Below are positions 814-5,808 of a stretch of 64,000 nt of DNA, piece after piece. A program made the position numbers and the translations under genes. Below the pieces are notes generated by a model. That model had not been told where the DNA came from and ran no database searches. It saw nothing but the letters and a program-made list of their open reading frames with translations. Numbering within the stretch: position 1 is the stretch's first letter; every line of letters begins with the position of its first letter. Source of the stretch: Streptomyces sp. 1331.2 (lineage in GTDB: Bacteria > Actinomycetota > Actinomycetes > Streptomycetales > Streptomycetaceae); the NCBI RefSeq assembly GCF_900199205.1, contig NZ_OBMJ01000001.1:3785001-3849000 (forward strand). Direction: 5' to 3'.

Positions 814-1857
814 TCACGCCACCCCGCGCCCGAAGGAGCGCCGGTACGCGGTCGGCGAGGTGCGCATCACCCGGCCGAAGTGGTGGCGGAAGGTCGCCGA
901 GCTCTCGAAGCCGACCGCCGCGGCGATCTCCTCCACCGTCCCGTCCGGGGACTCCAGCAACGGCAGGCTGGCCGCGATGCGCTGGGTGACGACCCAGCGC
1001 ATCGGGCTGGTCCCGTTGCGGGCGGTGAAGTGCCGCAGGTAGGAGCGGTCGGACATCCGGGCGGCGCGGGCCAGCACGGGGACGGTCAGCGGGGACGACA
1101 GGTGGTCCAGCGCCCACTGCATGCTGCGCCCGATCCCGTCGTCCTCCTCCTCGACCGGGCGGACCGCCGCCTCGATGAACTGGGCCTGCCCGCCGTCCCG
1201 GTGCGGCGCCACCACGAAGCGGCGGGCCACGTTGTTGGCCACCCTGGCGCCGTGGTCGCGCCGCACGAGGTGCAGGCACAGGTCGATCCCGGCGGCGCTG
1301 CCCGCGCTGGTCAGCACGGACCCGTTGTCCACGTACAGCACGTCCGGGTTGACCCGCACCGCCGGGTGGCGCTGCTGGAGCAGGTCGGCGTACCGCCAGT
1401 GGGTGGTCGCCTCCCGGCCGTCCAGCAGCCCGGCGGCGGCCAGCGCGAAGGCGCCCGAGCAGATCGACACGATCCGGGCGCCGCGCTCGTGCGCCGTACG
1501 CAGTGCCGCGACCAGCCCGGGGGAGACGTCGCCGCCGAACGCGTTCGGCACGCCGGGCACCACCACGGTGTCGGCCGCCGCCAGCTCGTCCAGCCCGTGC
1601 CGGGCGGTCAGCGCGAAGCCGCCGACGGTGTCCAGCGCCGTCCCGGGGCGGTCGGCGCACACCTTGAGGCCGTACCAGGGGGCCGCCAGCAGCCCGGTCA
1701 GCTCGGGCCGTGCCAGCCCGAACACCTCGACCACCACGCCGAGTTCGAACGAGGCCATGCCGTCGAAGGCGTACACCGCGACGTCGTGCACGGGCTCGGG
1801 CCGCCGGCCGATGGCGACGTCCACCGGCCGAGGCCGGGTGCCGGTCTGCTCGGTCAT
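814..1857 (-). CDS. GlxA/FtrA-like transcriptional regulator (DJ-1/PfpI domain + AraC HTH)
   Basis: This 347-residue protein has two domains. Residues about 25-190 form a DJ-1/PfpI class-I amidotransferase-like sensor, with VSICSGAFALAAAGLLDG at the nucleophile elbow carrying the Cys, and GSAAGIDLCLHLV. Residues about 235-340 form an AraC-type double HTH, with MSDRSYLRHFTARNGTSPM, then VEEIAAAVGFESSATFRHHF and SPTAYRRSF. Proteins of this layout act as cytoplasmic transcription factors that sense small metabolites, and the sensor is usually not enzymatic. The start MTEQTG is the first in-frame ATG. The region 1858-2091 upstream is shared with the divergent ECF sigma gene. Effector and targets cannot be read from the sequence. 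Confidence 0.88.
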   Translation of the reverse strand: MTEQTGTRPRPVDVAIGRRPEPVHDVAVYAFDGMASFELGVVVEVFGLARPELTGLLAAPWYGLKVCADRPGTALDTVGGFALTARHGLDELAAADTVVVPGVPNAFGGDVSPGLVAALRTAHERGARIVSICSGAFALAAAGLLDGREATTHWRYADLLQQRHPAVRVNPDVLYVDNGSVLTSAGSAAGIDLCLHLVRRDHGARVANNVARRFVVAPHRDGGQAQFIEAAVRPVEEEDDGIGRSMQWALDHLSSPLTVPVLARAARMSDRSYLRHFTARNGTSPMRWVVTQRIAASLPLLESPDGTVEEIAAAVGFESSATFRHHFGRVMRTSPTAYRRSFGRGVA

Positions 1858-1937
1858 GCGAACCCCCTGCTCACGGGTGGCGGAATGCCGGTGAGTGTAG
1901 CCGCCCCGGCCTGCTCGGAAATTTCTTCGACCCCACC

Positions 1938-1964
1938 TGCAACCTCCACTCCCGTCACACGTCC
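1938..1964 (+). promoter_or_regulatory. Candidate ECF sigma promoter (TGCAAC-N16-CGTC), upstream of the ECF sigma gene
   Basis: TGCAAC at 1938-1943 is followed after exactly 16 bases by CGTCC at 1960-1964. The same element with the same spacing occurs at 4290-4316 before the lipoprotein gene. The AAC-type -35 and CGTC-type -10 are characteristic of ECF sigma promoters, which suggests the sigma factor at 2092 activates its own gene. The assignment rests on two sites only. Confidence 0.6.
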
Positions 1965-2091
1965 ATGGGTACGGGGGCGGAGGGAGCCGGGCCGGGTGCA
2001 GCTGGGAGGATCCCCCCGATCACGATCTTGATCAGGTGTCCTGACGGTCCGGCGAACGCCGTCACCGTCCCGGGGGAAAGCGGAAGCGCAC

Positions 2092-2769
2092 ATGTCCATG
2101 GCCATCGGGCCGACCGTCGCACCGGCCGGGAGGCGGGGATTCTCCGTCCGCGGCGCGATCGCCCTGCTGTTCGGCGTGCAGGAGGTCGGCGAGCCGCTCG
2201 CCGGCCCCGTCACCGAGCAGGAGGCGAAGCAGCGCCGTTCCGGATTCCGGCTGCTGCGCGGCGGCCGCAAGCCGGCGGAGGACCGGCCCACCCTGACCGA
2301 CCTGTACCACGCCCACCGGCTGGGCCTGGTCCGGATGGCGGTCCTGCTGGTCGACCACCAGGACCTGGCCGAGGACGTCGTCCAGGACGCGTTCACCCAG
2401 CTCTACCAGCGGTACGGCGAGGACCTGGACGACCTCGACAACGCCCTCGGCTACCTGCGGACCTCCGTGGTCAACGGCGCCCGGTCGATGCTGCGCCGCC
2501 GCAAGACCGCCCGCGAGTACGTGCCGCCGCACGAGGCCGACGCCCCGTCCGCCGAGGACCACGCGGTGCTCAACGACGAACACCGACGGGTGCTCGTCGC
2601 CCTGCAGGAGTTGACCCCCCGCCAGCGTGAGGTGCTGGTGCTGCGCTACTGGTCCGACATGTCGGAGGCGCAGATAGCCGAGACCCTGGGGCTGTCCCGG
2701 GGTGCCGTGAAGTCCACGGCCAGTCGCGCCCTGGACGCCTTGGAAAAGCACCTGGAGAAGGTTCGATGA
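2092..2769 (+). CDS. ECF RNA polymerase sigma factor, Streptomyces SigE-family (TIGR02983-like)
   Basis: This 225-residue protein has an N-terminal extension of about 65 residues. Region 2 follows (LTDLYHAHRLGLVRMAVLL, then VVQDAFTQLYQRY), then a linker, and then region 4 (LTPRQREVLVLRYWSDMSEA, then AETLGLSRGAVKSTASRAL). There is no region 1.1 or 3, as expected for ECF (group 4) sigma factors. The final ATGA overlaps the start of the next gene, so the two are translationally coupled, and that neighbour is the likely membrane partner or regulator. ATG at 2092 follows a GGGGGAAAG-type ribosome site. A second ATG at 2098 is possible. The shared promoter motif suggests positive autoregulation. 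Confidence 0.9.
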   Translation: MSMAIGPTVAPAGRRGFSVRGAIALLFGVQEVGEPLAGPVTEQEAKQRRSGFRLLRGGRKPAEDRPTLTDLYHAHRLGLVRMAVLLVDHQDLAEDVVQDAFTQLYQRYGEDLDDLDNALGYLRTSVVNGARSMLRRRKTAREYVPPHEADAPSAEDHAVLNDEHRRVLVALQELTPRQREVLVLRYWSDMSEAQIAETLGLSRGAVKSTASRALDALEKHLEKVR

Positions 2770-4184
2770 CCGACAAGCTCCCCCGCCGGATCGGCGGCGA
2801 CGGCGACGGGCCGGCCGAGACTCCGACCGAACGGCTGCTCCGCGAGGCGATGGGTGCCCGCGCCTCCCTGGTGACGGCGGACAGCCTGCGCCCGGCCGCG
2901 CCCCCGAAGAGCCGGATCCGCCGGCTGCGCCCGGTGTACGCCGTCACCGTGCCGCTCGGCCTGGCCGCCGCGATGGCGCTCGGCGTGCTCACCTTCCACG
3001 GCGAGCCGGTCGCCCACGACCAGGTGCCGCCGCCGGCCGCCACCGTGACGACCTCCCCCAGCCCGACCGCGGAGCCGACCACCTCCCCCAGCCCGACGGC
3101 CACCGCCACCGACACCGGCACGCCGACGGGCGAGCCCGAGACCGACGTCCGGCCGGCCAACGGCACCCCGTCCTCCGGCCCGTCGGCCACCAACACCCTG
3201 CCCGTCGGCCCGGCGAGCTCGTACAACCTGCGGGGCGTCAAGTTCAAGGTCCCCGCGGGCTGGAAGGCCGTGCAGCTCTCGGCGAGCCGGGTCTGCGTCC
3301 TGAGCCCCGGCGCGCCGACGGACCCGCAGCCGGGCTGGACGTCGGCGCAGTGCGAGCCGTACGGCGTCCTGGTCGTGGCGTACAACAGCCCGGACGAACT
3401 GGACGGCGGCGCCTGGCCCACGATGGCCGACCTGGGCTCGGAGAGCGGCTGGGGCCACCAGCCGAACTGCCCGGTCTGGGGCCGCCCCTACGTCCCCGCC
3501 AACGGCTACTCCTCGATCGGCACCCCCGTGCGGACCAGGGACATCGTGGCCGGGAAGACGATCGACAAGACGCAGTGGCAGGTGACCTGCCAGCCCGGTG
3601 ACACCTTCACGGCCCAGCTGTGGGGGCTGAGTTCGGACCAGGTGTTCGTGGTGGCGAACGGGTTGAAGAGCGACTACCAGCCCGCGCTGGTCTCGATCCT
3701 CGACACCCTGGACGTCAGCGGCCACCAGCCGCCGGCCTCGGCGACGGCGAGCGGGACGGACATCGGTATCACCGTGGACGGCCTGGTCACGGGCCAGCAG
3801 ATTCCCGACGACGGCAGCCCGACGACGTTCTCGGTCACCTTCAAGAACACCGGCAAGACCGCCTACGCCCAGGTGACCCCGCACGTGGTCGCCGAATCGT
3901 ACGGGGGCAGCCAGCCGACCGTGCACGGGACGCTGGAGCGCCAGGACGGCGCGGTCTGGACTCCGGTGGACCTCAACCGGCCGGGCGCGGGCAAGCCCGG
4001 CATCGCCGGGAGCTTCGCACTGGCCCCCGGGCAGAGCGTGACGCTGAAGTACCGGATGAAGCTGACCAAGGAGGACGGTGCCGGAGTGATGCCCGTGACG
4101 GCGGAGGCGCTGTCGATCCCGGCCGACGGGCCGGCCGTCACCGTCGGCCAGCACACCGTGCCGGTCCGGGTGACCGCGAAGTAG
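2766..4184 (+). CDS. Single-pass membrane protein coupled to the ECF sigma factor (putative anti-sigma/sensor partner)
   Basis: The first about 55 residues are polar and cytoplasmic-looking. A transmembrane helix follows at about 60-78 (VYAVTVPLGLAAAMALGVLT), then a Thr/Pro/Ser-rich linker and a large extracytoplasmic part. The C-terminal about 150 residues (from IGITVDGLVTGQQIPDDG) resemble the corresponding region of the lipoprotein at 4442-5674: both have G(I)GIT..GL..G.QI, F.VT.KN, GTLER.D and a Y.M.L pattern. The start overlaps the sigma stop by 4 bp. Topology and coupling fit an anti-sigma or signal-sensing membrane partner, but no recognised zinc anti-sigma motif (HxxxCxxC) is present. 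The function is inferred from context. Confidence 0.75.
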   Translation: MTDKLPRRIGGDGDGPAETPTERLLREAMGARASLVTADSLRPAAPPKSRIRRLRPVYAVTVPLGLAAAMALGVLTFHGEPVAHDQVPPPAATVTTSPSPTAEPTTSPSPTATATDTGTPTGEPETDVRPANGTPSSGPSATNTLPVGPASSYNLRGVKFKVPAGWKAVQLSASRVCVLSPGAPTDPQPGWTSAQCEPYGVLVVAYNSPDELDGGAWPTMADLGSESGWGHQPNCPVWGRPYVPANGYSSIGTPVRTRDIVAGKTIDKTQWQVTCQPGDTFTAQLWGLSSDQVFVVANGLKSDYQPALVSILDTLDVSGHQPPASATASGTDIGITVDGLVTGQQIPDDGSPTTFSVTFKNTGKTAYAQVTPHVVAESYGGSQPTVHGTLERQDGAVWTPVDLNRPGAGKPGIAGSFALAPGQSVTLKYRMKLTKEDGAGVMPVTAEALSIPADGPAVTVGQHTVPVRVTAK

Positions 4185-4289
4185 CCCGCAGCGGGCCGTC
4201 CTTGAGGCGCCGTGACGAGGGGTTTCCCCTGGTCACGGCGCCTTTCGGCGTTCCGGCGGGAACGCGCGAAAAATAGTGTCGAACCCGGC

Positions 4290-4316
4290 TGCAACCCCCG
4301 GGCGGGATGGACGTCT
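4290..4316 (+). promoter_or_regulatory. Candidate ECF sigma promoter (TGCAAC-N16-CGTC) of the lipoprotein gene
   Basis: TGCAAC occupies 4290-4295 and CGTCT 4312-4316, with 16 bases between them. This is identical in composition and spacing to the element at 1938-1964. The lipoprotein start at 4442 lies about 120 bp downstream. Confidence 0.6.
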
Positions 4317-4441
4317 ATCAGGGTGAGAGGCGGGGAGAGCGAGCCGGCGGAGCCGGGGCTCGGGCCGGCTCCTCGGGGCGCGCGACGAGGCGCCCGTTCA
4401 TCCGATCATCACCATCACCATGTCCTTGGGGGGACTGTCCC

Positions 4442-5674
4442 ATGAGCGCGTCCGTTATTGCCCGTATTGCGAAGATCGTTCCGCTGGCCGTCATCGCCGC
4501 CGTCGGTGTCACGGCCTGCGGTCCGGCGGACAACGGCGCCCCGGCCGCCGCCTCGGCCCCCGTCTCCACCCCGGCCGCCGTCTCGGTGACGCCCGGCGCC
4601 GGTGCCGTCCCCGCCCTCCCGGCTGCGCCGACCACCGACCCCGCCGCCCCCACCGCCGCGCCGGCGCCCGCCGAGACCCCCGAGGCCGCGGCCGCCGTGA
4701 CGGCTGGGACCAAGCCGGCCGCCAAGCCCACTGCCGCCAAGGCCGCCACCGCCCCGAAGGCCGGCGCCGCGCCGAAGGCCTCCACCGCGCCCGCCCCGTC
4801 CACCGGCAACGGGAAGGGCAGCGGCAGCGGCATCGGGATCACCTTCACCGGTCTGGACGACGGTCGGCAGATCGAGCTGAACGACCTGGTGTCCTTCTCC
4901 GTCACCTGGAAGAACAACGACGCCACCGGCACCCGCAGCGTGGCCCCGGTGGTGGCGACCCAGCAGTACGAGGGCGCACCCTGCAGCCGGGTGGTCGCGA
5001 TGGCGGACGGCACCCTGGAGCGCAAGGACGCCTCGGGCTGGAAGAAGCTGGACAGCCTCAGCCAGGGCACCGGGATGGACTACGTGACCAACCGCAACGA
5101 CGGGGCCTTCACGCTCGCCGCCGGCGAGAGCCGGACCATCGAGTACCGGATGCGGCTGTCCCCGGCCAACCGTCCGGGCCGGATCGGGATCGAGGCGGAC
5201 GCCCCCGTGCCGGGCTCCACGGACTACCGCGGCATGGCGAAGGCCGTGGTGAACGCCACGGTCGTCGACCACCACGGCCCGGAGGTGACCGGCGTGTCCG
5301 CGGGCAGCGTCAAGGTCGGGACGAGCCCCACCGCGTTCGGCTTCGTCGTCTCCGCCCCGGAGGGCACCGCGGACCTGCACCCCGTGGTGTCCGTCTCGGC
5401 CGCCGACGAGCTGGCCGCGGACGACGTCACCGTGGAGGCCATGGTCGGCGGCGCCTGGAAGCCGGTCGAGCTGAAGCAGGACTGCGAGGGCCTGACCGCG
5501 GTCGCCCCGACCGGGCTGGAGGTCAACCGGTGGGGCGACTCGGTCGAGTACGCCTTCCGGATCGCGCTGAAGAAGGCCCCGGTCCACGGCGACGTGGAGG
5601 TCCTGGTGGGCGCCCGGTCCAACGGCCACCAGGCCGCCCGCTGGAACCCCTTCGCCCCCCTGGGCGGGCGGTAG
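4442..5674 (+). CDS. Secreted lipoprotein with duplicated Ig-like/DUF4352-like regions, probable ECF regulon member
   Basis: The start is ATG at 4442, preceded by GGGGGGAC; an earlier in-frame start at 4307 has no such site and would bury the signal peptide. The protein has 410 residues. A signal peptide ends in a lipobox (AVGVTACGPADN, Cys about 24), followed by an Ala/Pro/Lys-rich linker to about residue 120. Two beta-rich regions come next: about 130-280, with FSVTWKNNDATG and EYRMRLSP, and about 290-405, with FGFVVSAP and EYAFRIALKKAP. The first is related to the C-terminus of the preceding membrane protein. It is predicted to be anchored on the outer face of the membrane. The function is unknown. 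Confidence 0.8.
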   Translation: MSASVIARIAKIVPLAVIAAVGVTACGPADNGAPAAASAPVSTPAAVSVTPGAGAVPALPAAPTTDPAAPTAAPAPAETPEAAAAVTAGTKPAAKPTAAKAATAPKAGAAPKASTAPAPSTGNGKGSGSGIGITFTGLDDGRQIELNDLVSFSVTWKNNDATGTRSVAPVVATQQYEGAPCSRVVAMADGTLERKDASGWKKLDSLSQGTGMDYVTNRNDGAFTLAAGESRTIEYRMRLSPANRPGRIGIEADAPVPGSTDYRGMAKAVVNATVVDHHGPEVTGVSAGSVKVGTSPTAFGFVVSAPEGTADLHPVVSVSAADELAADDVTVEAMVGGAWKPVELKQDCEGLTAVAPTGLEVNRWGDSVEYAFRIALKKAPVHGDVEVLVGARSNGHQAARWNPFAPLGGR

Positions 5675-5709
5675 CCGTTCGGCGGCCCCATGACTGCGCC
5701 CCCATGACC

Positions 5710-5748
5710 GAGGGCCCGGCCTCCCACTGCTCGGGAGGCCGGGCCCTC
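5710..5748. terminator. Bidirectional terminator hairpin
   Basis: A perfect 16-bp stem (GAGGGCCCGGCCTCCC and its complement) encloses a 7-base loop. It lies between the convergent lipoprotein and aminopeptidase genes. Confidence 0.85.
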
Positions 5749-5808
5749 TTGGCTGCCCAGGCGCTCGGGCTCGGTCGCGCAAGCGCTCAGCCGCGCGAGC
5801 GCTCAGGC

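Follow-up and report, generated by a model that had tools for sequence, protein, structure and literature searches.

A probably autoregulated ECF sigma factor whose membrane partner shares an ectodomain with predicted surface outputs in Streptomyces sp. 1331.2

Here we describe a putative extracytoplasmic function (ECF) sigma factor circuit in a 64,000-nucleotide (nt) stretch of the genome of Streptomyces sp. 1331.2 (contig NZ_OBMJ01000001.1, positions 3,785,001 to 3,849,000, forward strand; hereafter the window). It comprises a sigma factor gene, an overlapping gene for a membrane partner and a lipoprotein gene downstream. Our favoured reading, held with moderate confidence, is that of an autoregulated ECF sigma factor with a non-zinc membrane anti-sigma factor and a small regulon of surface proteins. 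The motif TGCAAC-N16-CGTC occupies 1938-1963, ahead of the sigma gene, and 4290-4315, ahead of the lipoprotein gene, as a preliminary description of this DNA had stated, with a gap of exactly 16 nt at each. Comparison with related genomes supports the predicted promoters and their conservation, the connection of these promoters with this sigma factor, and the sharing and exchange of domains between the partner and the outputs. The features of the locus are as follows.

1926..1963, plus strand: predicted promoter of the sigma operon, TTCGACCCCACC with TGCAAC-N16-CGTC, 128 nt from its end to the sigma start
2092..2769, plus strand: ECF sigma factor of the SigE family (TIGR02983), 225 amino acids (aa), with a conserved N-terminal extension of about 60 aa
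2766..4184, plus strand: membrane partner, 472 aa, putative non-zinc anti-sigma factor, its start overlapping the sigma stop codon as ATGA
4204..4244, plus strand: strong hairpin and possible terminator between the partner gene and the lipoprotein promoter, -40.6 kcal/mol, z -6.6, without a T-run
4278..4315, plus strand: predicted promoter of the lipoprotein gene, GTCGAACCCGGC with TGCAACCCCCGGGCGGGATGGACGTC, kept in relatives
4442..5674, plus strand: lipoprotein, 410 aa, with signal peptide, lipobox (VTAC), Ala/Pro-rich linker and immunoglobulin (Ig)-like domains at about 128-278 and 277-410
5708..5752, plus strand: strong hairpin and possible terminator 3' of the lipoprotein gene, -41.7 kcal/mol, z -6.0, with no T-tailed terminator listed

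The sigma factor scores 144.7 bits against TIGR02983, above the curated cut-off of 141.55 for the SigE family of ECF (group IV) sigma factors, and matches Sigma70_r2 (28.0 bits, cut-off 24) and Sigma70_r4_2 (64.1 bits, cut-off 25.7). Its N-terminal extension (window 2092-2290), ahead of region 2, follows the pattern MSMAIG...RGFSVRG..ALFG...QRRSGFRLLRGGRKP. The lipoprotein signal peptide and lipobox, MSASVIARIAKIVPLAVIAAVGVTAC, were identified by pattern match only. Because strong hairpins follow both the partner gene and the lipoprotein gene, the latter is probably a separate transcription unit; a scan of the plus strand for sigma-70 promoters and T-tailed terminators gave no matches.

The promoter motif in the window and the genome

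With gaps of 14 to 18 nt allowed, 0.69 matches to the motif are expected by chance in the window and two are reached in 17 of 100 shuffles, so the window by itself is weak evidence against the possibility that the matches arose by chance in GC-rich intergenic DNA. The genome as a whole speaks otherwise. The exact N16 motif occurs at eight sites in 8.43 Mb compared with 52 for the backwards pattern, and is not common at random, an outcome that would have counted against the preliminary description. Three of the eight sites precede the sigma gene, the lipoprotein gene and a third surface protein gene; in a simple open reading frame (ORF) test, three of the others are intragenic and two are apparently intergenic with no same-strand gene called downstream. 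A stricter pattern derived from relatives, TGCAACCY-N13-RCGTC, has exactly three sites in the genome (control, two), and when the promoter is extended by the conserved upstream stretch TTCGAANCCACC, with at most three mismatches, the same three sites are returned and the control falls to zero. We rejected a chance motif on this rarity and on the extended promoter; taking in the third surface-gene site and the conservation in relatives described below, an origin by chance is scarcely credible.

The promoter is very specific, at three sites per 8.43 Mb. No wider regulon was found in this genome: with one mismatch, the stricter pattern gave 14 sites (backwards control 48), of which 13 were intragenic by the simple ORF test and none stood before an obvious surface gene. 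The looser pattern with one mismatch gave 648 sites compared with 1366 in the control, and weak sites may be missing from the matches listed.

The third site (G000:C1:3715542-3715567, minus strand) lies about 71 kb away, outside the window, and ends about 120 nt before a gene for a secreted protein of 313 aa. This protein has a signal peptide and a C-terminal PELAHTG... followed by a hydrophobic stretch and RRLRPRR. That is the layout of signal peptide, LAxTG, transmembrane helix and basic tail which we take to define sortase-E substrates, and the protein is accordingly predicted to be anchored to the cell wall. It carries an Ig-like domain related to the family found in the partner and the lipoprotein, and the leader region of its gene is similar to that of the lipoprotein gene. 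The circuit had been described as self-contained, which does not hold, because this third promoter of the same type serves an LAxTG surface gene outside the window; relatives carry up to six such sites per genome.

Promoter conservation and the predicted regulon

We examined 29 copies of the sigma gene, of which 28 are from 26 genomes of the same genus (DNA matches of at least 424 bits) and one is from Kitasatospora sp. MAA19. The exact motif stands 125-134 nt ahead of sigma in 19 copies, and two others (G020, G123a) have the CGCAAC variant; in G015 the motif lies 340 nt upstream with just a short open stretch between. In five further copies the motif precedes a surface gene that is itself upstream of sigma (exact in G004, G005, G080 and G172; CGCAAC in G120), with about 435 nt separating the two genes in G080. 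Leaving out a second sigma copy in G023 that falls at a contig edge, the promoter is found before sigma or its adjoining upstream surface gene in 27 of 28 testable copies, three times as CGCAAC. The lipoprotein-gene promoter is also kept. The same conserved motif is therefore found at the sigma gene and at its predicted targets, the pattern by which an autoregulated ECF sigma factor is recognised, judged here by motif conservation. Scans near sigma genes that allowed gaps of 15-17 nt returned only 16-nt gaps at promoter positions among the matches listed, with a few of 15 or 17 elsewhere.

Four more distant orthologues of the same genus (G013, G075, G148 and G161; 57-61% identity) have CGCAACC-N15-CGTC starting 428-535 nt upstream, and a short secreted or membrane protein is called between site and sigma in all of them but G013. 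Among eight orthologues from elsewhere in the family, in other genera (L167-L174), CGCAACC-N15-CGTC is present in four, either upstream or at the estimated start; a fifth has a CGCAAC form 909 nt upstream, and the remaining three have none.

The number of motif sites also follows the presence of the sigma factor. Twenty-five same-genus genomes were searched for both, with G013 (a 253-bit match) counted as lacking the sigma factor. The 16 genomes with a strong match (at least 424 bits) hold 61 sites and the nine without hold five, compared with 11 and nine for the backwards controls; the difference in sites per genome gives a Mann-Whitney p of 4.7e-5, or 9.8e-5 once the sigma factor's own promoters are removed. 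In 16 genomes outside the genus there were 11 motif sites and 18 control sites. Conserved promoters and this co-occurrence together lend support to the earlier proposal that the sigma factor drives itself and the lipoprotein, and from them we consider it very likely that it acts on promoters of the TGCAAC type.

Several observations count against this assignment. The co-occurrence p-values are optimistic because the genomes are related. G007 has a sigma copy with the motif neither before sigma nor before the upstream gene, its single genome site being apparently intragenic. In G002 an LAxTG gene has the motif but there is no strong match to sigma, and in G024 no gene was called downstream of a motif site. 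Nine orthologues from another family of the order showed no motif upstream. Finally, the SigE-family profile finds 51 places in the Streptomyces sp. 1331.2 genome at E 0.001 or better, ten of them above the cut-off. As a separate observation, most of the sigma genes in that other family (L143-L151) have another conserved stretch ahead of them, around GCCCGTATATTGC and GATAGCATGGG, which suggests that they are under different control.

The abundance of SigE-family members raises the alternative that the promoters are read mainly by another of them, or by the orthologue of Streptomyces coelicolor sigmaE, with the present sigma factor a target rather than the driver. In the parts of PMC6767563 available to us, the sigmaE promoters of Table 1 likewise have AAC at -35 and CGTC at -10, and overlapping ECF specificity is reported. 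However, among the 43 of 91 table rows that were measured, the spacing from the end of AAC to the start of the -10 element is 17 nt in 40 and 18 nt in three, and never the 16 nt found here, so that sigmaE-type promoters were rejected on spacing; the spacer counts of 16 and 17 given in that paper use its own definition of the -35 region. Together with the way that motif number tracks the present sigma factor within the genus, this makes a different driver improbable.

To describe the regulon we read 84 distinct sites, namely 67 of the 77 from the scan of relatives (66 after one duplicate; nine of the ten left out lie outside the genus) and 18 from L036 and further stretches. With a simple ORF caller, 21 stand before sigma, 45 before a gene for a protein with a signal peptide or transmembrane segment or an LAxTG motif, and 18 before neither; a few of the last group are probably real sites missed by the caller (e.g. 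L096, L197, L201) and others are intragenic. The predicted outputs include two-Ig lipoproteins and LAxTG proteins with Ig-like repeats, and also ricin-type lectins (L082; 123.2 bits to PF14200) and a lipoprotein whose WD40-like match to PF07676 reaches 24.2 bits (cut-off 20.9) without any single stretch passing.

Gene order varies between loci (L071 in G005, L187 in G172, L206 in G004, L076 in G014, L099 in G018), with the surface gene upstream, on both sides, or present as a tandem LAxTG pair in which each gene has its own promoter. Effector promoters (window 4290-4315, L069-L124) tend towards a CCCC....GGGGATG spacer, with GGGA in 26 of 45 effector sites and 6 of 21 sigma sites, and have a nearly invariant TGA 9-11 nt past CGTC; a second input or an initial-transcript signal is a possible explanation for these features. 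A 347-aa minus-strand ORF (window 814-1857) diverges from the sigma operon, its start 80 nt away from the sigma-promoter core; judged by eye, it resembles an AraC-type regulator that includes an amidotransferase-like part. The nearest named relatives of the locus are in Streptomyces novaecaesareae, Kitasatospora sp. MAA19, Kitasatospora sp. SUK 42 and Streptomyces sp. CB02056.

The membrane partner and its shared ectodomain

The partner gene starts 1 nt before the sigma stop codon at 29 of 34 loci; the remaining five also have GATGA but yield no usable 150-aa ORF starting there (one is cut by a contig end). The protein is predicted to consist of a short cytoplasmic segment bearing the conserved pattern ERLLREA...LRP..PP, one transmembrane helix (about 56-78), a Pro/Thr-rich linker, a PsbP-like domain (about 150-319) and an Ig-like domain (about 329-472). 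The overlapping start, the single predicted helix and the conserved cytoplasmic segment fit an anti-sigma role, and we consider it rather likely that the partner is a membrane anti-sigma factor; against this, it matches no known anti-sigma family, nor any Pfam or NCBIfam family above cut-off. An HxxxCxxC motif in the cytoplasmic domain is the hallmark of zinc (ZAS) anti-sigma factors. Residues 1-58 of the partner contain no His or Cys and therefore no such motif, so a zinc anti-sigma identity was rejected.

Structure models of the partner and the lipoprotein had mean predicted local distance difference test (pLDDT) scores of 60.4 and 59.2, from five sequences each, and only the ectodomains are fairly confident. 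In the partner model, residues 150-319 resemble PsbP-like folds (best match Mycobacterium tuberculosis Apa, 5zxa; Z 9.7, root-mean-square deviation (rmsd) 3.4, 139 aligned residues) and residues 329-472 (window 3750-4181) resemble Ig-like folds (best match AvmM, 7fe5; Z 12.1, rmsd 2.6, 136 aligned, 18% identity). AvmM is a protein of alchivemycin biosynthesis. The best match of the lipoprotein model, at Z 9.4, is to a general Ig-like fold. Such matches between predicted structures speak to fold and not to function.

A related extracytoplasmic domain in the partner and the lipoprotein had also been proposed, and this is borne out by their sequences: the C-terminal domain of the partner and the first domain of the lipoprotein share 36% identity over 125 aa (pairwise E 7e-20), and their profiles match with a probability of 99.9 where five controls reach at most 0.3. 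Further profile-profile probabilities connect the LAxTG domain with the second lipoprotein domain (97.9) and with other LAxTG repeats (96.7), and the partner Ig domain with the LAxTG domain (96.4) and with other LAxTG repeats (94.4). Twenty-one partners went into the partner Ig and PsbP profiles, and nine loci were omitted (the five double-Ig loci described below, G004, G044, G120 and G148).

The partners also differ in their ectodomains. Among the 29 classified (28 from the same genus or MAA19 and one from another genus), 22 are PsbP-like plus Ig, five in four genomes carry two Ig-like domains as the lipoprotein does, one is PsbP-like alone and one is neither. These five double-Ig copies lie dispersed over the sigma tree, where at least two changes are forced by the starred branches. 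In G023, for example, the second sigma groups with the sigma factors of MAA19 and G017 (96/93), whose partners are of the PsbP-like form. Two genomes have two sigma-partner copies each, both double-Ig in G123 (L190, L191), and one PsbP-like plus Ig and one double-Ig in G023 (L131, L198). In a tree of Ig domains, restricted to domain hits of at least 40 bits, the five double-Ig partners cluster with the lipoproteins (98/98). We consider exchange of ectodomains between the partner and the outputs likely on these comparisons, for which the scattered architecture on the sigma tree is firmer evidence than the Ig-domain tree. That lipoproteins may have been the source of the partner Ig domain is supported by the 98/98 grouping, but an approximately unbiased (AU) test does not reject a single clade of partners (p 0.12; 0.13 without two long rows).

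Not all of this evidence favours exchange. The sigma-tree bootstrap had not settled, and five of the ten profile pairs are weak (30.7, 17.8, 13.8, 4.1 and 1.0), including the partner against the second lipoprotein domain (4.1) and the two lipoprotein domains against each other (1.0). These weak pairs, and the single partner clade left standing by the AU test, count in favour of an alternative in which the sigma factor is autoregulated and drives surface proteins as proposed, but the Ig-like domain is simply a common surface fold recruited repeatedly, with no common ligand and no feedback. Ig-like folds are very common on surfaces and many unrelated proteins score alike; some outputs, such as the ricin-type lectins and the WD40-like lipoprotein, lack an Ig domain; and the PsbP-like domain that accompanies Ig in most partners was detected by profile in none of the scanned outputs. 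Repeated recruitment accounts less well for the kinship at sequence level of the partner with the first lipoprotein domain, of the partner with the LAxTG domain and of the LAxTG domain with the second lipoprotein domain, or for the double-Ig layout of the outputs on five of 29 partners scattered across the sigma tree. We regard it as a serious though unlikely alternative.

Known systems and a proposed circuit

Control of surface-coat proteins (chaplins and rodlins) by a sigma factor with a membrane anti-sigma factor is familiar from BldN/RsbN. The present circuit would resemble that system on both counts, but its sigma factor belongs to a different subfamily, because it scores 48.5 bits where the BldN-family model requires 206.45. 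ECF sigma factors with ZAS anti-sigma factors are similar in having a coupled single-pass membrane partner with a cytoplasmic N-terminus, and differ in the HxxxCxxC motif, which is absent here. The sigmaI factors of Clostridium thermocellum are presumably not ECF sigma factors of the family considered here. As described in the available parts of PMC4711584, SigmaI3 and sigmaI6 recognise the promoters of the sigI genes that encode them, the majority of rsgI genes overlap sigI, and the membrane anti-sigma factor RsgI6 has an ectodomain GH10 module 57% identical to the output Xyn10D. The two arrangements have in common a sigma factor acting, here by prediction, at its own promoter, an overlapping partner gene and an ectodomain homologous to an output, although the outputs are cellulosome enzymes in one and Ig-like surface proteins in the other. 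By analogy, sigmaI6/RsgI6 appears to be the circuit that works most alike, a likeness of working from which membership does not follow: no RsgI-type domain was among the Pfam and NCBIfam matches of the partner (E up to 1) or of one orthologue (E up to 0.5), in libraries that presumably include an RsgI model.

The sigmaE-CseABC system of S. coelicolor, as presented in the same parts of PMC6767563, similarly combines an ECF sigma factor, envelope genes, AAC/CGTC promoters and a lipoprotein, CseA, which is speculated to modulate the membrane sensor. In contrast to the present circuit, sigmaE has no anti-sigma factor, is under two-component control and does not target its own promoter, and AAC and CGTC are 17 or 18 nt apart in the promoters measured. 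No motif resembling TGCAAC-N16-CGTC was found in the accessible portion of PMC9205884. We found no report of the present circuit in the literature available to us, a weak negative given that subscription journals lay mostly outside the search. The type of switch is familiar, and an arrangement in which the sensor domain is common to the outputs may be new.

We propose the following circuit, for which we infer an anti-sigma function, a ligand and the sign of the feedback. The SigE-family sigma factor would recognise TGCAACC-N15-CGTC promoters and drive three units, namely the sigma-partner operon, the two-Ig-domain lipoprotein and the LAxTG cell-wall-anchored protein. The partner would most likely use its short conserved cytoplasmic segment to keep the sigma factor at the membrane in an inactive state. 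On a signal, the freed sigma factor would raise its own operon, giving positive feedback plus more inhibitor, and turn on the surface proteins. As its ectodomain belongs to the Ig-like family of the outputs, the partner most likely senses an envelope ligand or assembly state on which the outputs act. Accumulating output could then damp the circuit through competition for the same ligand or through direct contact with the partner. Competition with, or reporting to, the partner by the lipoprotein, as first suggested in the preliminary description, is plausible, with the two-Ig layout of five of 29 partners (four genomes) as its strongest indirect backing, while feedback through the shared domain is possible but stops short of being probable.

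In its most specific form, the membrane sensor would be a tethered, exchangeable copy of the sigma factor's outputs: free lipoprotein or wall-anchored copies would compete with the sensor Ig domain, by which the cell would gauge the amount of surface protein, and the ectodomain would have been swapped for an output-type one more than once while the sigma-facing part was kept. Taken whole, this version is more doubtful still, and we advance it tentatively.

Actinomycetes of this group encode many ECF-type sigma factors, many of them without known targets or signals. Here, comparison alone has sufficed to tie one such sigma factor to a promoter, a compact regulon and a membrane partner. The ectodomains that sensor and outputs share, and probably exchange, suggest a testable way in which a regulator might detect its own product on the cell surface, by which the cell may measure its own coat.

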